Source: an uncultured Oscillospiraceae bacterium | GTDB taxonomy: Bacteria; Bacillota; Clostridia; Oscillospirales; Ruminococcaceae | Length of the DNA: 11,841 nt | Direction: 5' to 3' | NCBI GenBank assembly: GCA_900556525.1 | Contig: USOZ01000036.1 | Location: 1 to 11,841, forward strand | Shown here: piece by piece, positions 2,366-11,517 of the stretch | How the letters are laid out: the number at the start of each line of letters is the position of its first letter | How positions within the stretch are numbered: position 1 is the first letter of the stretch | Notes under the pieces: generated by a model | What the model was told of the DNA's origin: nothing | Seen by the model: only the letters and a program-made list of their open reading frames with translations | Databases searched by the model: none | Position numbers and translations under genes: made by a program

Positions 2366-4360
2366 TCAGTTGAACTTTTCCACGACATCGTTTATCTGCG
2401 CAGCAGTCTGTGCGTTTGAGCGGGTGAGGGTATTGAGCTTCTGCGCAATCGAATTTGTTACGCTGGCCTTTTCGTCAATGCTGCGTATGTTGTTCTCGTT
2501 ATTGAGAATAATGCTGTCAAAGTGCATTGCTTCGGCGCTGATGTTTTCAAGCAGACTGAAGATGTTTTCCATCTCGCCGTTGGTAGAGTCCATAGAATCC
2601 TTGAGGCTGCCAACAAGCTTGTTCATGTCGCCGAAGCTGTCGGCAATGTCCGTCCTGATAAAGTCTGTGATGTCCTTGAAACAATGCTCTATGCCTGCGA
2701 TGATGTCGTTCATGCTGCCGCACACGTCGAAAATCTCCTTGGCGGCGTCTGCGGAGTCCTCCGAAAGCTTTTTGATTTCATCTGCTACAACGGAGAATCC
2801 CGCACCGGCTGTGCCTGCTCTCGCCGCTTCGATTGAAGCATTTATGGCGAGAATGTTCGTCTGCGACGAGATATCCTGTATGCGCTTTACCTTTTCGTTG
2901 ATACTGTTAAGTTTATTAAGGTTATCAATGGCGGCGGAGATATCACCCTGGGTAAGCTCAGCCTTGTCTTTCATGGAGTTGGCCAGACTCTGCGCATTCT
3001 TTATCATGTCATCGGCAACCGAAATCCTTTCCGCATTGGATTTTTTGCTTTCTTGCATGATATCGTGTATTGAAGAGATGTCTGCGTTGACCTTCTGAAT
3101 GGTCTGCGATGTCTCGTTAATGCTGTCGGAAAGTTCCTTGGTAGAGCGCGAGTTATCCTCCGCGCAGGAAACAAGGGAAGTGACCGTTTCGTTCATGACT
3201 TCCGCGCCGCTGCTGAGCGACTCGGTACAGCCCCTGAGCATTGATACAACGCCGCGGAGCGTTTCTGTGAGAATGTGTACAGAAGTGGCGATGTTGCCTA
3301 TCTCATTTTTCCTGCCGACGAAGCGTTCAATGTTCTTGCTGCTCACAAGAGACAGCTCGCCGAGCTCATTTACAGCCTCCTTCACCTTGCGCAGCGGCTT
3401 TGTGATGAGATGTGCTGTCACGAATACCGCAAGCACTACTATCACTAGCGTCAGCACGGTAAGCAGCATGTTCGTACGGGCAATGCTGTTGCTTGCCGCC
3501 AGTATCTCTGCGGAGGAATCCTGCATGGTAAGTATCAGGTTGTATTCGGGCAGTGACTTGAATGCGATGATATCATCGGCGCTGTAAACAACTCCCTTGC
3601 TTTCGCCGCTGCTTACGCGATTGATAATTGAAAGCATGGCTTCGTCCTCAACGGCAGCCATTATCAGCGAATTGTCGGTGTTGTAGGTGTAGATAAGGTT
3701 TGTAATGTCAAGTATCGCGTACTTTTCCTGCTCCATGCCGGAAATGGTCATCTTCGAGAGCAGGTCATTAAGTCCCGCAAGGAACGGGCCGCCGCCGACA
3801 AGTCCTATGGGCGTGCCTGCGTCATCAGTTATGGACATACGCAGATTGAATATGAGCTGACCCGAAGCGGGAGAGACGAATGCGCCGCCGTTGTAGAAGC
3901 CGTTCGGCGCGGAAGTCATCGTCGCCTGATAGGGCGCGAGCGCGTCACCCTTGCGCGTAACCATGCCCACTACAGAAGGGGAGGAATGCGCAAGCACTGT
4001 TGTGTCCCACTTGCTGAGGTAAACTCCTTCCCATGATTCGAGTTGTGCGAAGAAGCGCTCGGTGTATGCCTGCGCCGCCTGCTGTTTAGCTGCGTTGTCG
4101 GGTTCAAGCAGCAGTTCTTTAAGCTCGTCCGCCGTTGCATACTGCCTCAGCGACCGTTCTGATTCCTGTACGAACAGCTCTATCATGTTTGCCTGACCGT
4201 CAAGAGCGGTGTACATATTATCAATAGAGCTCTGCTTCGATGTCCGTGTAACTGAAGAAGTCATTACAAGGTACAGGCACGAAAGGCACAGAAGCGAGAT
4301 AACAGCGACGCTGAGGGTAATTACGGTTGCCATTTTCATTTGTTTGAAACTCTTTATCAT
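2366..4360 (-). CDS. Methyl-accepting chemotaxis protein (transmembrane dCache-type receptor)
   Basis: A complete 664-residue receptor that would sit in polar arrays and signal through CheW/CheA. Domain order: short cytoplasmic tail, first membrane helix about 11-33, extracellular sensor about 34-295 with dCache-like features ([16 protein letters not shown] at 113-128; [20 protein letters not shown] at 171-190), second membrane helix about 297-319, HAMP about 317-375, then a long signalling coiled coil. The conserved hairpin tip is around 493-537 ([39 protein letters not shown]). No C-terminal CheR-docking pentapeptide is seen; the protein ends VVEKFN. The start ATG 4360 has AAGGAGA at 4368-4374. 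A promoter (4550-4578) and a leader with a long hairpin (4392-4430) precede it. No other chemotaxis gene is nearby, so it must plug into host machinery. The ligand cannot be told. Confidence 0.95.
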
Positions 4361-4833: not shown

Positions 4834-5004
4834 ATGAATAAGCAGATAAGTTTATCGAACCCGGAGGACGAACTGTCACAGGTACGAGTTCCGTGGAACG
4901 AATGGACAGCAATGATAAAGCCGTGCTATTATAAAGGAGAGCGCGGGAATAAGCCATACGACCTGGAATTAATGCTGAGACTCTACCTGATACAGAATCT
5001 ATAT
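4834..5004 (+). pseudogene. IS5-family transposase, N-terminal fragment
   Basis: 57 codons from ATG 4834 encode the N-terminal (DUF772-like) region of an IS5-family transposase: MIKPCYYKGERGNKPYDLEL followed by MLRLYLIQNLY. Family members continue at this point with an N/DL(A/S)DEA segment. Here the true continuation (NLADEATVEQV) lies at 5523-5491 on the minus strand. The plus-strand frame instead runs into unrelated codons and stops at 5067. The break falls within TATAT at 5000-5004. Confidence 0.85.
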
Positions 5005-5523
5005 TTTATCAGTTTCCCAGAACGATTATTTACGATTGCTTCTTCACGCTTTTCTGCGCCAAGATAACCGCTGTCGCCATAAACGATTTCTTCCTCACCG
5101 GTAAGGAGTTCAGACATTATCGTTACATCGTGAACATTCGCCGGAGTGGCTTTAACGGTATGCGTAAGTCCGCTGTCCTTATCAACTCCGATATGCGCTT
5201 TATAGCCGAAATACCACGTGTTCCCCCCTGCGCGTCTGATGTGCTTCAGAGTCACGTTTGAGTTCCTTGTTTTTCGTGGAGGTCGGCGCTGCTATTATCG
5301 TTGAATCTACTATCGTTCCTTTTTTCAGGATCAGTCCTTTTGCTGTGAGCTGCTCTACCACCTGTGAAAAAAGCTTTTCCTGCAGCTCATTTTTTACCAA
5401 CAGATTTCTGAATCTTCCCAGCGTATCTCCGTCCGGTATCTGATTACTTGATTCCACGCCGCAGAAATCAGAAAACGCTCTGCTGTCCGTTACTTGTTCA
5501 ACAGTTGCTTCGTCAGCTAAATT
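5005..5523 (-). pseudogene. IS5-family transposase, central catalytic segment, inverted and frameshifted
   Basis: Read on minus, this 519-bp piece begins NLADEATVEQVTDSRAFSDF, continues with IPDGDTLGRFRNLL, then IVDSTIIAAPTSTKNKE (first catalytic Asp), YFGYKAHIGVDKDSGL, and VYGDSGYLGAEKR (second catalytic Asp), and ends AIVNNRSGKLIK. This is the middle of the protein whose two ends lie on plus at 4834-5004 and 5524-5773. Near 5223-5228 a run of six G (minus strand) shifts the frame by +1: five G would give RRGNTWYFGYK in one frame. The segment is bounded by TATAT (5000-5004) and its complement ATATA (5524-5528), which looks like the crossover microhomology. Confidence 0.9.
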
Positions 5524-5773
5524 ATATAAATTGAACCGCCGTCCATCTCAGAGCAATGACAATTCCGTCAGATCAAAGGCACAAATCAAACGTCGGGAAA
5601 GGGAGAAATCATCAGTCAGGTCAAAGGTTGAACACGTTTTTGGAGTAGTCAAAGGACTGCTCAGGTACCGAAAAACCCGGTACAAAGGTCTGCGAAAACA
5701 GACCGCTAAATTGAATATCATGTTCGCCCTGGCGAATCTGATTCTGGCTGACAGACCTCATTTGGCAGCTTGA
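5524..5773 (+). pseudogene. IS5-family transposase, C-terminal fragment
   Basis: On plus, in the frame ending with TGA at 5771-5773, this reads NRRPSQSNDNSVRSK, then SSVRSKVEHVFGVVKGLLRY (the catalytic Glu of the DDE triad), RKTRYKGLRKQTAKLNIMFA and LANLILADR. The TTG at 5531 is only an in-frame codon, not a real start. Joined to the re-inverted centre with one G removed, the three pieces make one frame of 312 codons plus stop, the usual IS5-family size. The last residues (PHLAA) may already be fused flanking sequence. Confidence 0.85.
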
Positions 5774-6536: not shown

Positions 6537-7487
6537 TCAGGCCTTACCCTCACGAATATCGTTGTAAGCCATATTTGAAAAGTAATTGCTGACAGTCACC
6601 TTGGAATTGTACAGTGCCGTGATGAGATATGACCGCACATTTCCGATACGGCTTGAATTATGCTCAAGAGCGTACAGCACATAGTTGATTTCTTCCTGTG
6701 TCAGCTTCAGAAAACGGCTTTTTACTATTTCCTGCGGCACATCTTCTCCGTTCACACGAATAGTCGGTGCGCTTGAACACACCACATCGACCATAATCTC
6801 AACAAGCTCATCAACCTGCTGTCTGGCAATGAAGTTATTGGCATAGGCTTCATCGTAGCTGATATTGCTGCATATTATTTCCCGGTAGTCCTTGCGTTCA
6901 GCAGCAGAAGCCGTTGCTTTATCTGTCCTATCATTCCCATCACTGCGCACAGGCACAGGAGTGAATGAGTGGATTGATTGGTCAGTATTTAATATATTAT
7001 TATTTAATTTTTGAATTGTGTCCGCTTCGGGATTATCCGCTGCCGATTTATCCGCAGGTGGATTTTCCGCTGACGGATAAACAGATTGGCTTTCCTTACG
7101 CTTTTTCTTGGGCGCTGTGCTTTTCTGCATCGGTTTTTCAGCAGGATTTTCAGCTGTTTTCTGTTCTTCCGAAACAAAATCGGGATTGTCATCGGGGCTT
7201 TCATACACTCGGTATTCGTTCCGAGCCATTCGTCCCAACTCATCACGGAGCTGTTTACGGACGATGTATCCGTACTTTTCAAGTTCCTTGACTGCAGTCT
7301 TAACGCTGTCAACGCCGTCTGCGGCGATAACAGCCAAGCCAGTGACCGTATAGTCCCAATCCGGCGGCAAACTCAATATCACAGACAGCAAGCCCTTTGC
7401 CTTGAAAGAAAGCCGCCTGTCTTTTAGGTGAGTATTTGACATAACCGTGTAATTTGCGGTTTTCTCAACTCTGAAAACAGTTGACAT
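6537..7487 (-). CDS. Winged-helix DNA-binding protein with DUF6017-type C-terminus
   Basis: 316 residues in three parts. Residues 1-98 form a winged-helix domain of the type found in replication and partition regulators of Clostridial elements (YTVMSNTHLKDRRLSFKAKG, LSVILSLPPDWDYTVTGLAV, AVKELEKYGYIV, then the wing NEYRVYESP). Residues 100-195 are a low-complexity Pro/Lys/Ala/Asp linker. Residues 200-316 match the DUF6017 pattern (RQQVDELVEIMVDVV, QEEINYVLYALEHNSSRIGN, VRSYLITALYNS). ATG 7487 has GAGGA 5 nt upstream. It follows parA-parB on the same strand, 90 bp after the parB stop, separated by a hairpin. Position and architecture fit a replication-initiator-like or partition-regulating protein. 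An initiator role is inferred, since no iterons are seen. Confidence 0.8.
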   Translation of the reverse strand: MSTVFRVEKTANYTVMSNTHLKDRRLSFKAKGLLSVILSLPPDWDYTVTGLAVIAADGVDSVKTAVKELEKYGYIVRKQLRDELGRMARNEYRVYESPDDNPDFVSEEQKTAENPAEKPMQKSTAPKKKRKESQSVYPSAENPPADKSAADNPEADTIQKLNNNILNTDQSIHSFTPVPVRSDGNDRTDKATASAAERKDYREIICSNISYDEAYANNFIARQQVDELVEIMVDVVCSSAPTIRVNGEDVPQEIVKSRFLKLTQEEINYVLYALEHNSSRIGNVRSYLITALYNSKVTVSNYFSNMAYNDIREGKA

Positions 7488-7577: not shown

Positions 7578-8561
7578 TTAAGTTTTGGTGCTGTTACGCA
7601 GTTTCTTTGCAAGACCGCTAATAATCTCAAAATCGGCGCTGCTTGTTATTTCAAGAAGCCGGGTCATATACCGAGAGAGCGCAGCAGCTTCGCTATCCGA
7701 GAGCATACAAGGCTCGTAATTCTCCGATACGATTTCAACTTCATCGTCATTGTCGGGAGTATAGCCGTCTGTTAAGCAGTCCTCTGCGCCCTCGTTTTCA
7801 TCGGCGGTATCCTCAGCTTCCGAAGCGGGCAGGGGTACGGCTTTTTCTTTTTTCGGCTTTGACGGAGATTTCTTCTGAATTTCCTTAACCTCCTTGTGAG
7901 ATATATCGGGCTTGTTTTCGATAATATCCCTCTGCTGTTCGGGAGCGAGCTTTGCTACCTCGTTCGCAGTGGATATGGACATATCGCCGGACTTTACCGC
8001 CTGTTCGACGTCGGGGATTGCGTTGTGCTTGATATTATCAATTTTTGCGATTTGAGCGGGGGACACATTCAGGACCTTTGCGATATTGTTCCGCATTTTA
8101 CCCTTGACGGGCTTTCCTGCTTCCTCCAATGCCTTGAAGATACGCTCCAGTTCCTCATACTCACGCATAGTATCTGCGCTTGTGTAGGTGCGCTGTGTAG
8201 CGTTCAGCATAATAAGGTCTAACTGCGTTTCTTCATCAGACTTTTCGCCCTTGACATAGCAGGGAACAGTGGTTGATTTACGCCGCCCTTCGGAAATAAG
8301 GAGCTTTATTGCCGCCAGCCGCCTGTGTCCGCTGATAAGCTTATATTTACCGTTCTCCGCAGCTGTTGCAACGAGAACGCTCATCAATCCCTGTCGTTCA
8401 ATATCCTCGGCGAGTTCCTCTATCTCCGCCATTTCGTAGAAATTGTCCTTGTTCGGCTGAATATCGTCAACCTCAATCATTTTCAGGCTGTCGATGAAGC
8501 TGTCGGAAGCCGCTGTTTTCAAATCCTCGGCTATTGCGTTGTTGAGAATAAGTTTAGCCAT
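7578..8561 (-). CDS. parB: ParB-family partition protein
   Basis: 327 residues. The ParB N-terminal domain covers about 25-125, with the CTP-binding/arginine motif GHRR at 78-81 (YKLISGHRRLAAIKLL) and LNATQR at 119-124. A helix-turn-helix for specific DNA binding follows at about 155-180 (NNIAKVLNVSPAQIAKIDNI), and a further SISTANEVAKLAP helix pair. From about 230 there is a Lys/Pro then very acidic linker (AEDTADENEGAED) and a short helical C-terminus. The start ATG 8561 lies 4 nt after the parA stop codon, with AAAGGGTG overlapping the end of parA, so the two are translationally coupled. ParB would bind a centromere site; the palindrome at 9319-9336 upstream of parA is one candidate. No nuclease-specific residues are evident. 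Confidence 0.93.
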   Translation of the reverse strand: MAKLILNNAIAEDLKTAASDSFIDSLKMIEVDDIQPNKDNFYEMAEIEELAEDIERQGLMSVLVATAAENGKYKLISGHRRLAAIKLLISEGRRKSTTVPCYVKGEKSDEETQLDLIMLNATQRTYTSADTMREYEELERIFKALEEAGKPVKGKMRNNIAKVLNVSPAQIAKIDNIKHNAIPDVEQAVKSGDMSISTANEVAKLAPEQQRDIIENKPDISHKEVKEIQKKSPSKPKKEKAVPLPASEAEDTADENEGAEDCLTDGYTPDNDDEVEIVSENYEPCMLSDSEAAALSRYMTRLLEITSSADFEIISGLAKKLRNSTKT

Positions 8562-8565
8562 TCAA

Positions 8566-9300
8566 TCACACCCTTTCTCTGATTTCGGCAGCTAAATCTG
8601 CGTAGCTTTTCGCCGCACTCGTCCAACCCATATATTCGCCTGCGGTCAGACCGCCGCTTAATGAGTTCTTGATGACCTTGCTATACGGGATTTTGCTTTT
8701 CAGAGTTTTATTTCCAAGCGTTTCATTGAGCAGCTCAAGGAGCTGTGCGTCTGCCGAGTTCTTCTTGTCGTACTTATTTATAATACAGCCGCCGAATTTT
8801 GCTCCGCACTTCTTAACCATACCCGTGACCGTTGGTATGCCTTGTATTGCGAATGTTCCGAGTTCTATCGGTATAAATACCACATCACACGCTCCGATGA
8901 GCCGTTCGGTGACTTTGGTGAGCGCAGGGGGCAAGTCAAGGAGAACATAATCGTATGCAGAGCCGAAAGAAAGAATTTTCCGAGCGATAGCCGCCTGTTC
9001 CTCGTCCGAAAAGCTGTCAAACTCTGATGTAATGCCGTTCAGCTTCGGTGTAGCCGTGATTATGTCGATATTATCGTACCGAGTGTGGCACAGAGCCGTT
9101 TCAGGCGAAAACTCGGTATTCACGAGAGCCTGCTCCAACCCCTCTTTCAGTTCCTCGGTGAAGAAGCGTGAGCAGTTAGCTTGTCCGTCCACATCAATGA
9201 TAAGGACTTTGCTGTTCTTCGCAAGCTCATAGCTTACGTTGATAGCCGAGGTAGTCTTTCCGACGCCGCCTTTGTTGTTATAAAACGCTATTGACTTCAT
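8566..9300 (-). CDS. parA: ParA-family partition ATPase
   Basis: 244 residues, deviant-Walker ATPase of the small ParA/Soj type (no N-terminal DNA-binding extension, so probably not autoregulating through such a domain). Visible: Walker A KGGVGKTT at 10-17, Walker A' DVDGQAN at 36-42, Walker B VLLDLPPAL at 119-127, and VFIPIELGTFAIQGI at 141-155. It would form nucleotide-dependent contacts with the nucleoid and ParB to place element copies in daughter cells. ATG 9300 is set by AAAGAGG at 9308-9314, 7 nt upstream. It is first in a parA-parB pair. The 149-bp gap before it is almost entirely inverted repeats (9319-9336, 9365-9421, 9423-9448), which points to regulation at the leader or operator level. 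Confidence 0.95.
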   Translation of the reverse strand: MKSIAFYNNKGGVGKTTSAINVSYELAKNSKVLIIDVDGQANCSRFFTEELKEGLEQALVNTEFSPETALCHTRYDNIDIITATPKLNGITSEFDSFSDEEQAAIARKILSFGSAYDYVLLDLPPALTKVTERLIGACDVVFIPIELGTFAIQGIPTVTGMVKKCGAKFGGCIINKYDKKNSADAQLLELLNETLGNKTLKSKIPYSKVIKNSLSGGLTAGEYMGWTSAAKSYADLAAEIRERV

Positions 9301-9318
9301 AAGTAAACCTCTTTTCTT

Positions 9319-9336
9319 GGTGCTATATGTAGCACC
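9319..9336. promoter_or_regulatory. Perfect palindrome upstream of parA: candidate operator or parS-like site
   Basis: GGTGCTA (9319-9325) and TAGCACC (9330-9336) are perfect inverted arms around a 4-nt centre, 19 nt before the parA start. The dyad is typical of a dimer-binding site. It is not the Bacillus parS sequence. Whether ParB, the winged-helix protein or RNA folding uses it cannot be told. Confidence 0.55.
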
Positions 9337-9364
9337 TTTTCAACCTCTTTTTTCTCCTATATTT

Positions 9365-9421
9365 GTACGGCGAGGGTGAGGAAAGAGGAAACCTCACCCA
9401 AAGGAGCTACCTTTGCCGTAC
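9365..9421 (-). promoter_or_regulatory. Nested three-way-junction structure in the parA leader
   Basis: The outer arms GTACGGC (9365-9371) and GCCGTAC (9415-9421) enclose two adjacent hairpins: GGGTGAGG/CCTCACCC (9374-9381/9392-9399) and AAAGG/CCTTT (9400-9404/9410-9414). All pairs are Watson-Crick, and only two bases (9372-9373) at the junction are unpaired. No T tract follows, so it is not a simple terminator. The 10-nt loop of the larger hairpin reads UUUCCUCUUU on minus; its CCUCUUU part is the exact complement of the parA Shine-Dalgarno AAAGAGG. Confidence 0.7.
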
Positions 9422-9422
9422 T

Positions 9423-9448
9423 GTTAAATCCCTTGGGGGGAGTTTAAC
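9423..9448 (-). terminator. Hairpin directly after the DUF6075 stop codon
   Basis: GTTAAATCCC (9423-9432) pairs with GGGA-G-TTTAAC (9438-9448) with one bulged base. It starts 1 nt after the stop codon of the DUF6075 gene on minus. There is no U tract, so it is more likely a 3'-end-protecting or processing hairpin adjoining the three-way junction than an intrinsic terminator. Confidence 0.45.
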
Positions 9449-9449
9449 C

Positions 9450-9809
9450 TTAATATTCGTGTTCGGGGTATCTCAGCTTAATTGCTTCAAAGTAGTAGTT
9501 GGCGTAAGTAGAGGTGAATATCTCGTTGGGAGTAAATCGCTTTTCCTCGCCTTTCTCAATGAAGCCGTTCCAAAGGTTGAACGCAAGCCGTGTTGTCTGA
9601 ACAGATGTTCCTGTCTGCCAACCGCTGTGCAGACCGTCGGGATTGATAGCGTCCTCTTTGAAATCGAACACATCGTTAATGTGCCTTGCACAATCCTTGT
9701 CGAGCGTGAACAGATACGCAACCGCACGGTGATAGCAATCGGTGGATCTCATTCTTGCGAGAACGGAGTAATACTTCTTTTCGTGTTCGCTGTTCATAAA
9801 CTGCACCAT
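9450..9809 (-). CDS. DUF6075-type small protein
   Basis: 119 residues from ATG 9809. The frame is open to 9983, but the extra 58 codons look non-coding, and AAAGGAG 7 nt before ATG 9809 sets the start; an extended -10 box lies within the longer ORF. The pattern NSEHEKKYYSVLARMRSTDC, YHRAVAYLFTLDKDCARHIN, FDFKEDAINPDGLHSGWQTG, TRLAFNLWNGF and the end YANYYFEAIKLRYPE resembles the DUF6075 family, common on Clostridial mobile elements and without an established function. No membrane segment or signal peptide; probably a compact cytoplasmic helical protein. It precedes parA by 149 bp on the same strand and may share its transcript. The conserved LAFNLWNG and YYFEAIKLRYP are the best family markers. 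Confidence 0.75.
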   Translation of the reverse strand: MVQFMNSEHEKKYYSVLARMRSTDCYHRAVAYLFTLDKDCARHINDVFDFKEDAINPDGLHSGWQTGTSVQTTRLAFNLWNGFIEKGEEKRFTPNEIFTSTYANYYFEAIKLRYPEHEY

Positions 9810-9857
9810 AGGGTACTCCTTTCTGATATGTCCTTGCGCTGTTTTCCTTGCAAGTGC

Positions 9858-9866
9858 ATTGTAACA
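9858..9866 (-). promoter_or_regulatory. Extended -10 promoter of the DUF6075 gene
   Basis: On minus, TGTTACAAT (9866-9858) is an extended -10 box (TGN followed by TACAAT) about 49 nt before ATG 9809. I see no good -35 box. The preceding stretch 9867-9994 is AT-rich and shows no supportable gene. Confidence 0.45.
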
Positions 9867-9994
9867 CATTAAAGCGTTAAAGCCTATACATTTCTGAAAA
9901 AAGAAAACCTTTTGCAAAGATTTCGTAGACTTCAACAAAAGAGCGTGCAACAATATGTAAACTTTAGCATGAATAGCCAGCATAAAAAGGGTAT

Positions 9995-10029
9995 AAAAAA
10001 GCAGCCCTCCGCATTATGAACGGAGGGCT
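9995..10029 (-). terminator. Strong intrinsic terminator left of the att site
   Basis: AGCCCTCCG (10003-10011) and CGGAGGGCT (10021-10029) form a perfect 9-bp GC-rich stem with a 9-nt loop. On minus it is followed by GC and then six T (9995-10000). The only minus-strand gene upstream is the integrase (stop at 10330), so in this arrangement the integrase transcript would cross the att site and end here. Confidence 0.85.
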
Positions 10030-10115
10030 TGGTATGATGTGTCGTAAAATCGTGGCCTTTGTTTGGTCTTTATTATCGACAAAACCCACTTGATATTGCT
10101 ATAAAACGCTAAAAA

Positions 10116-10174: not shown

Positions 10175-10189
10175 AAGTCCTAAACTCAA

Positions 10190-10212
10190 TTCGATTCCCG
10201 TACGGGTCACCA
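10190..10212 (+). other. Attachment-site core: 3' end of a tRNA gene
   Basis: Read on plus this is a tRNA 3' end: T-loop TTCGATT (10190-10196), T-stem 3' strand CCCGT (10197-10201), acceptor 3' strand ACGGGTC (10202-10208), discriminator A, and CCA (10210-10212). The preceding bases (CTCAA) do not pair with CCCGT and no tRNA body exists upstream, so it is not a tRNA gene. It lies 118 bp from the stop of a tyrosine integrase, as expected for an att core. The target tRNA would begin GACCCGT; a tRNA-Lys is possible but unproven. Confidence 0.75.
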
Positions 10213-10329: not shown

Positions 10330-11517
10330 TTACCTGTCTGCCTTATGTCTGTTTTTGAGAAAGTCGAAAGCGCTGTCCATGGCTTCAGAAACACGAGCCT
10401 GTGCAGTATCAAACTGGTGTGAGTAAACATTCAACGTCGTAGTTGAGTTCGAGTGTCCGAGCGCACCTGACACGGTAGTCACGTCAAGTCCCGCTGAAAT
10501 CAGCGCAGAAGCTGCAAAGTGGCGAAAACTATGTATCCCGTAAAAAGGCAGCTCGTTCTTTTCACAAAATTCTTTCAGCCAGCCGTAGGGAGTTTGATTG
10601 TTCATCGGTTCGCCGTTCCATTTAACAAAAAGTCGGTCGCTTTCAACCCATTTGTCGCCGTATTTCAACGCCTGCTCGTCCTGTTCTTCTCTAAGCTGTC
10701 TCAGAATGTCCATGATGAATTGCGAAATTTTCAGCGTCCTCTGCGAGCGTTTTGTTTTTGTTGTGTCCGTGTAAATCCCGCGCTCTGCCGTGTAATTCGA
10801 TGTGCGCCGAATGCTGATAATGTTGCTTTTGAAATCAACATCTTTCCATTCCAAACCGAGCATTTCAGAGCGTCGCAGCCCGCTGTAAGCAATGAGGTAA
10901 AAGAAAGCGCGATACTTGAGCGGTTCACCGGCAAGTCTGCTCAGAAGCAGTTCCATTTCTTCCTGCGAGTAAATTTTCTTTTCACAGACCTCACCGCCGG
11001 GAATAATCACCCTCCTGCACGGATTATCCGAAAGAAGTTCCATTCGCACAGCGTAGCTAAAAACGTCAGAAATGAAGCTGAGATAGTGGCGTATAGTTTT
11101 CTGTGCAAGCGGCTTGCCTGTTTTTTCATTTGCGCCGTCCTTTGCGAGCGAGTTAACAAACCCTTGAAGCTGCCGTGCGGAAATTTTGTCAATGCGAAGA
11201 TGTCCCAAAGCGAGATATACGCGCCCCCGAAGCTGAAGCATGCGTTCTAAAGTGGTGCTTCGGAGGCTGTTTTTTGCACAGTTTTCAAACCACTCCTCGG
11301 CCAACTCTTCAAATTTGACCGCCGAAACGCGCAGACCGTGCATGCATTTCTCCTCGAAAATCACAGCCTGCCGCTGAAGTTCTTTTTCGATCTGACGTTC
11401 GCTCATGCCTGCTTCGGGTCGCCATGTCATTGCCTGTTCTTTGTGATTGCCGTGCGTGTCATATCCTGTGGAAACACGAATTTGATACGAGTTTCCACGT
11501 TTTCTGATAGTTGCCAT
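10330..11517 (-). CDS. int: Tyrosine recombinase / site-specific integrase
   Basis: 395 residues, full length for a phage/ICE-type integrase. N-terminal about 1-50 is a small arm-binding domain (MATIRKRGNSYQIRVSTGYD). The core-binding SAM-like helical domain covers about 65-165 and the catalytic domain about 180-375. Active-site residues are visible: Arg215 in YSGLRRSEML, a Lys near 256 in TKTKRSQRT, His329 and Arg332 in GIHSFRHFA, His355 in GALGHSNS, and the nucleophile Tyr365 in NVYSHQF. ATG 11517 has AAAGGAAA (11523-11530) upstream. The excisionase-like gene precedes it in the same direction, with a strong terminator (11535-11569) between them. Its 3' end faces the tRNA-derived att core, the usual xis-int-att order. 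It should integrate and excise the element at that tRNA 3' end. Confidence 0.95.
   Translation of the reverse strand: MATIRKRGNSYQIRVSTGYDTHGNHKEQAMTWRPEAGMSERQIEKELQRQAVIFEEKCMHGLRVSAVKFEELAEEWFENCAKNSLRSTTLERMLQLRGRVYLALGHLRIDKISARQLQGFVNSLAKDGANEKTGKPLAQKTIRHYLSFISDVFSYAVRMELLSDNPCRRVIIPGGEVCEKKIYSQEEMELLLSRLAGEPLKYRAFFYLIAYSGLRRSEMLGLEWKDVDFKSNIISIRRTSNYTAERGIYTDTTKTKRSQRTLKISQFIMDILRQLREEQDEQALKYGDKWVESDRLFVKWNGEPMNNQTPYGWLKEFCEKNELPFYGIHSFRHFAASALISAGLDVTTVSGALGHSNSTTTLNVYSHQFDTAQARVSEAMDSAFDFLKNRHKADR

Follow-up and report, generated by a model that had tools for sequence, protein, structure and literature searches.

Pseudoknots that sequester the Shine-Dalgarno (SD) sequence occur in preQ1, SAM-II and other riboswitches, while leader pseudoknots of the repZ/repA type are known from IncB and IncL/M plasmids. 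In the case of plasmid ColIb-P9 (IncI-alpha), the excerpted text of PMC8383071 describes repZ translation as dependent on a leader pseudoknot located upstream of the ribosome-binding site. In mosquito-borne flaviviral xrRNAs, the L3 loop of a three-way junction forms a pseudoknot with sequence further downstream (PMC5760640, excerpt), and the PK2 helix of flaviviral xrRNAs comprises 2-7 bp (PMC8571300, excerpt). The locus analyzed here carries, directly before a partition gene, a compact three-way junction predicted to form a pseudoknot with the strand that follows it. We regard this leader as a probable RNA control element of a new kind; the literature search, limited in collection and wording, yielded no published account of it that we recognized and returned nothing on DUF6017 or DUF6075. 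The reading we favor, at roughly even confidence, is that of a structured leader RNA exerting translational control in cis over the next gene.

The window, by which we mean the whole stretch of 11,841 nucleotides that was analyzed, encodes on its minus strand an integrase (10330-11517) and a DUF6075 protein, the latter in a gene with its stop at 9450; these are followed by parA (8566-9300), encoding an AAA_31 ATPase (Pfam PF13614, E 1.9e-36), parB (7578-8561) downstream of it and, as the last gene of the series, a DUF6017/HTH_36 gene (6537-7487), which we take to resemble a replication initiator. Given this DUF6075-parA-parB-DUF6017 arrangement on the minus strand, the 149-nt gap between the DUF6075 stop and the parA start (9301-9449) looks like the parA leader within an apparent maintenance operon, minus being the coding strand of the junction element as well. 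ARAGORN detected no tRNA gene in the window; by eye, a stretch resembling a tRNA 3' end lies near the integrase (10185-10212) and may represent an attachment site. Broken transposase-like frames (4983-5773), by eye a probable decayed insertion sequence, lie between a chemotaxis-receptor gene (2366-4360) and the genes of the integrative element. A gene with a Zeta_toxin domain (845-1867; PF06414, E 1.7e-13) has similar genes, by eye, in loci L093 and L099.

On the minus strand, positions 9365-9421 are predicted to fold into a three-way junction in which the outer stem P1 (7 bp, 9421-9415/9371-9365) encloses the hairpins P2 (5 bp, 9414-9410/9404-9400) and P3 (8 bp, 9399-9392/9381-9374). All stems are free of mismatches, and only two bases of the junction (9373-9372) stay unpaired. 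The earlier note had read this same arrangement from the letters, and refolding agrees with it, the shuffled sequences being far worse; its description of the surroundings, with a 10-bp hairpin at 9423-9448, a dyad at 9319-9336, a 149-nt gap before parA and no U tract after the element, was likewise accurate. The minus-strand segment folds with an MFE of -28.1 kcal/mol (z -4.96) and its plus-strand complement with -27.4 kcal/mol (z -5.63), none of 200 dinucleotide shuffles being as good in either case, and the complete gap gives a fold z of -3.56. Rfam 15 returned no match at the gathering threshold in the window, the best sub-threshold hit being MIR477 (E 0.28), and none in 11 loci carrying the element, so that the earlier impression of an unnamed RNA family holds against this collection.

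The set of relatives was enlarged with three covariance models (R1, R2 and R3), and the resulting alignment, A8, comprises 26 rows from 24 places, window included, corresponding to 21 distinct sequences that are mutually related. In A8, both partners change in 16 of the 20 pairs. Of the 403 cells, 95.8% are paired, and covariation scores 0.639, compared with 0.229 in shuffles. A single shuffle in 500 reaches 16 pairs, 22 in 500 reach the number of pair types, and none reaches the other three measures. The alignment was fitted to the structure and is biased towards it; controls slid by 1-3 columns give at most 5 covarying pairs and at most 57.1% paired cells, and these slides agree with the plain sequences. 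Covariation is complete in P1 (7/7) and P3 (8/8) and is found at one of five pairs in P2; in L004, the outer stem differs entirely in its letters and retains its pairing. Compensatory change among aligned relatives, to which the earlier note had looked as a check, is thus present, and the predicted junction fold is more than a chance arrangement, because relatives carry such changes. Strong conservation is restricted to the core of P2 (9400-9414), GGUMGCKCC (M = A or C; K = U or G), which is near-invariant in the printed alignment apart from L091 and L144, and we propose this hairpin as a candidate recognition site. The non-Watson-Crick cells of A8, read on the sense strand, comprise 19 G.U, 4 A.C and 13 others, and the excess of G.U over A.C points to the minus-strand transcript, rather than its complement, as the conserved fold.

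A scan of GTDB contigs with ParA recovered seven loci, including two distant ones at 26-28% identity. The earlier note had regarded absence of the element from relatives with the same parA as evidence against it, and the relatives are divided: L001, L002 and L004 carry the element upstream of parA, whereas in L003 (ParA 63% identical) and L005 (60% over residues 1-134) the DUF6075 gene runs into parA and no element is present. Searches with the core pattern added copies in genomes G001 and G005. In the Clostridia genus of G304, which includes G001, G004 and G005, 12 of 43 genomes carry the element at 22 places (E <= 0.01); outside this genus it was found in G002 alone (R3, 1 of 95 genomes of the order of G002, part of the candidates being scored). 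A class-wide sample around G001 (R3) gave 1 of 331, G001 only, an absence that is soft since part of the first-look candidates was scored, and the core-pattern search of 394 genomes of the order of G001 matched G001 itself alone. Family samples searched with R2, in which 18-22 first-look candidates were scored per genome, gave 2/297, 2/297 and 2/247 on largely overlapping genome lists, and R3 gave 7/41 each, again in overlapping sets, among the relatives of G304 and of G005. In the family of G002, R2 matched 2 of 70 genomes, one match being L092, which was rejected as a GC-rich inverted repeat. Structure-descriptor matches beyond the known copies, including one within parA (9174, plus strand), were rejected as well. 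In counting, L149 repeats the two places of L147, and L090 and L142, identical to L088, were counted once with it. The named relative records are Clostridia MAGs, one of them from roe deer rectum. The 149-nt gap had no blastn match in plasmid and phage collections at E <= 1, and ParA identity stayed below 60% in all of the best 5,000 plasmid records and in all 116 phage records. In IMG/VR, neither an exact core match nor a ParA relative was found; a looser core gave 67 stretches, which a crude filter on the outer stem reduced to three, and on inspection by eye the junction was seen in none.

Further analysis was based on 22 distinct copies, differing in element or downstream sequence and including the window. 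The gene that follows in the sense direction is parA in 13 of them, a DUF6017-type gene with the same N-terminus as the DUF6017 protein of the window in 2, another gene in 5, and has no clear start in the remaining 2. The other genes include that of the L088 type and that of L095 (8622-9419), neither with a Pfam match, the latter related by eye to the genes after L148 and L091. Two copies lie 2.8-3.5 kb apart on each of G001 C2, G304 C8 and G005 C2, two lie 1.8 kb apart on G1066 C204, and G1053 C3 holds three. As copies stand before different genes, several to a contig, the element is portable and not partition-specific. One related contig, that of L099, carries a TraG/VirD4-type coupling protein, and another, that of L095, an integrase. 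Three arrangements may be recorded here. L147 (95-606) contains two junctions at a spacing of 0.46 kb, of which one is followed by parA and the other by a gene whose product has a hydrophobic N-terminus; a tandem pair of 244-245 aa genes in L097 (10241-11847) has a junction at the first gene only, the second having palindromes and an SD; and in L010, where the junction precedes a DUF6017-type gene, the upstream flank holds a terminator-like hairpin ending about 50 nt away, an interval that may contain a promoter.

The recurrence of copies before different genes of one contig, together with the near-invariant P2 core, would also be expected of a platform for an RNA-binding protein, encoded by the integrative element or by the host, that acts on transcription through attenuation or antitermination. 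We consider this improbable: the sole terminator-like site in 9250-10100 (minus strand, 10029-10003) precedes the DUF6075 gene, with none between the junction and parA, and the distance from the pseudoknot to the start codon, given below, is narrow.

The pseudoknot, absent from the earlier note, would join a segment of the P3 loop, CCUCUUU (9388-9382), to the strand AAAGAGG (9350-9344), hereafter copy 1, which lies 14 nt after P1. A P3-loop segment complementary to a strand starting 7-14 nt past P1 is found in 22 of 22 distinct copies, with stems of 5-9 bp and at least 5 nt in a row in every copy. Pairing each loop with its own downstream strand gives a sum of 152 over the 22 copies, against a permutation mean of 113 and a maximum of 139 (0/20,000); with one copy per loop sequence (n=14) the sum is 98 versus 70 (0/20,000), and an initial test covering 7 lineages had given 14/5,040. 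Within single copies, the shuffles that match the observed pseudoknot range from 0/2,000 (L008) to 191/2,000 (window, 7 bp). Loop and strand change in concert, from CCUCUUU/AAAGAGG in the window to AGCCUUCUU/AAGAAGGCU in L008, CCUCUAUU/AAUAGAGG in L152 and CAGCCU/AGGCUG in L140, and L151 has a G.U at a position that is A-U in L153. Two copies, L151 (7 pairs with the G.U) and L145, have only 5 consecutive Watson-Crick pairs, and in both the SD match is better than the copy-1 match. In 22/22 copies the loop strand is preceded by a linker of 2-6 nt and followed by one of 0-2 nt, which gives the predicted pseudoknot the geometry of the classical H-type.

A pseudoknot upstream of the ribosome-binding site of a maintenance operon invites comparison with the antisense copy-number or incompatibility switch of ColIb-P9 repZ (PMC8383071, excerpt), in which case a plus-strand RNA over the junction would block the needed pseudoknot. 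The plus strand does fold well, and two of the 22 copies precede a DUF6017-type gene, which looks initiator-like. We nevertheless give such a switch a slim chance, since a simple consensus scan of 9250-10100 found no promoter-like site on either strand (1.2 expected by chance), the wobble pairs indicate the sense strand, and incompatibility targets should diverge between elements, whereas the P2 core is near-invariant.

In the window, the parA SD (9308-9314) has the same letters as copy 1, AAAGAGG, and is thereby also complementary to the P3 loop, the loop:copy 1 and loop:SD duplexes having equal energies of -8.1 kcal/mol. Among the 20 copies whose gene start is known, the loop-to-SD match is at least 6 nt in 14 and 3-4 nt in six (L140, L146, the two in L147, L091 and L154); permutations reach the observed sum in 77/20,000 with one copy per loop (n=13) and in 8/20,000 with all 20. 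The SD and spacing tests leave aside L143 and L144, which have no clear gene start, and the spacing test also L010 and L141, whose DUF6017-gene leaders place the start codon at 144 and 106 nt. In the 18 copies that enter it, the pseudoknot lies 24-59 nt from the start codon by raw count (sd 9.3), and the effective distance, with paired parts of the spacer removed, is 16-28 nt (sd 3.2), compared with a mean sd of 8.0 in shuffles (0/500), although this test is weakened by a palindromic spacer that many copies share by descent. The longer spacers contain hairpins: the window has one, L145 has another of different sequence, and L150 has two.

The spacer hairpin of the window, GGUGCUACAUAUAGCACC (9319-9336), is the dyad of the earlier note, and its core belongs to a separate dispersed palindrome, GTGCTAYATRTAGCAC (9320-9335). 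This palindrome and its variants (<=3 mismatches) occur in both orientations 3 times in L093, 7 times in L095 and 10 times in L097, about 20 kb each, and 15 of these 20 sites have no adjoining junction. It looks like a candidate DNA operator or ParB site that doubles as a spacer hairpin here. Several palindrome sites lie directly before the SDs of junction-less genes. In IMG/VR, the palindrome pattern gave 40 stretches, 39 with a single site, which were taken as chance. On the other side of the junction, 1 nt 5' of it, the 10-bp hairpin at 9423-9448 contains one bulged C; hairpins of this type (GUUAAA../..UUUAAC, with varying letters) precede about 10 of the 22 distinct copies by eye, the window among them, and another type precedes about 4 of 22. 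In about six others, a stretch resembling TTGACGGGTCACTCCC lies further 5'.

Copy 1 could itself recruit ribosomes to a short leader ORF that is coupled to parA through an ATGA overlap, in which case the pseudoknot would hide this site. A GTG frame from 9335 in the window does end in a TGA overlapping the parA ATG, and similar frames are seen by eye in L012, L088 and L140; by the same inspection, L011, L008, L009 and L146 have no frame with a usual start codon, and we attach very little credence to this alternative. Conjugative elements pass through single-stranded DNA, and both strands of the junction fold, two points in favor of a single-strand origin, transfer or centromere site. Such a DNA element is most improbable in view of the SD and open frame that follow in sense 20 of the 22 distinct copies (sense side examined), the complementarity to the SD, the narrow start-codon distance and the several copies per contig before different genes. 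Among the options raised in the earlier note, the translational switch therefore gains, whereas the DNA origin or centromere loses ground: a cis-acting RNA is favored because of the covariation, the direction of the wobbles and the covarying pseudoknot tied to the start codon.

Under translational control in cis, the mRNA would fold into the three-way junction, and the P3 loop would pair with the purine-rich strand just past it to form the H-type pseudoknot, the edge of which would come to lie about 25 nt upstream of the start codon, at the rear of the site covered by the 30S subunit. In most copies, the window included, the loop could alternatively pair with the SD region, creating two mutually exclusive states: pseudoknot with free SD, presumably on, and loop on SD, presumably off. 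The near-invariant P2 hairpin would be the likely binding site of a putative factor that sets the balance and may be common to several genes of one integrative element. As six of 20 copies have a loop-SD match of 3-4 nt, the on/off swap is not universal; only the pseudoknot is.

Unlikely, but with appreciable weight, is an element that blocks 5'-to-3' exonucleases or governs mRNA stability or processing, stopping RNase J or marking a processing site such that, within the polycistronic mRNA, sequences downstream of it would persist longer than those upstream. Its nested topology is that of the mosquito-borne flaviviral xrRNAs, one of which halts bacterial RNase J1 in vitro (PMC5760640, excerpt), and the copy of the window sits between two cistrons, with copies repeating on single contigs; yet such a block needs neither a narrow start-codon distance nor loop-SD complementarity. 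A related and distinctly doubtful proposal is that of a bacterial xrRNA counterpart, or a compact ring-like pseudoknot, acting as a portable post-transcriptional module of integrative elements. If this were true, a single factor or nuclease could jointly set the output of parA, the replication-type gene and others. If translational control is correct, post-transcriptional switching joins the means by which maintenance genes are tuned. With this element, the leaders of partition and other genes in Clostridia mobile elements gain an RNA family that covaries strongly, is pseudoknotted and has no Rfam 15 match. Its repeated, near-invariant P2 hairpin allows a search for a partner, and because copy 1 and the SD compete for the same loop, the mechanism would be testable by a few point mutants.

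Compared with known systems, the locus resembles the ParA/ParB loci of Clostridia integrative elements in its DUF6075-parA-parB-DUF6017 order and nearby integrase. It shares with the SD-sequestering riboswitches a loop segment complementary to the SD region (14 of 20 copies), but differs in that SD pairing is not found in all copies, the universal partner is located 5' of the SD, the genes that follow have no metabolic role, and no Rfam match exists. The flaviviral xrRNA appears closest in topology, sharing by pairing topology both the three-way junction and the L3-to-downstream pseudoknot in its excerpted description; here, however, the pseudoknot stems have 5-9 bp, versus 2-7 bp for PK2 (PMC8571300, excerpt), and the element resides in Clostridia mobile elements before start codons. 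The repZ leader pseudoknot appears closest in working principle, and membership is claimed in neither class. Unlike repZ, the hairpin here belongs to a three-way junction, in which a second, near-invariant hairpin forms another arm, and the element, repeated before different genes, precedes mostly parA, a replication initiator not being the general rule. No antisense RNA was found, the simple consensus scan of 9250-10100 being blank for promoters. As in the repZ leader, so far as the excerpt describes it, the loop of a hairpin is complementary to leader sequence that lies before the ribosome-binding site of a maintenance gene, a complementarity present in all 22 copies here.
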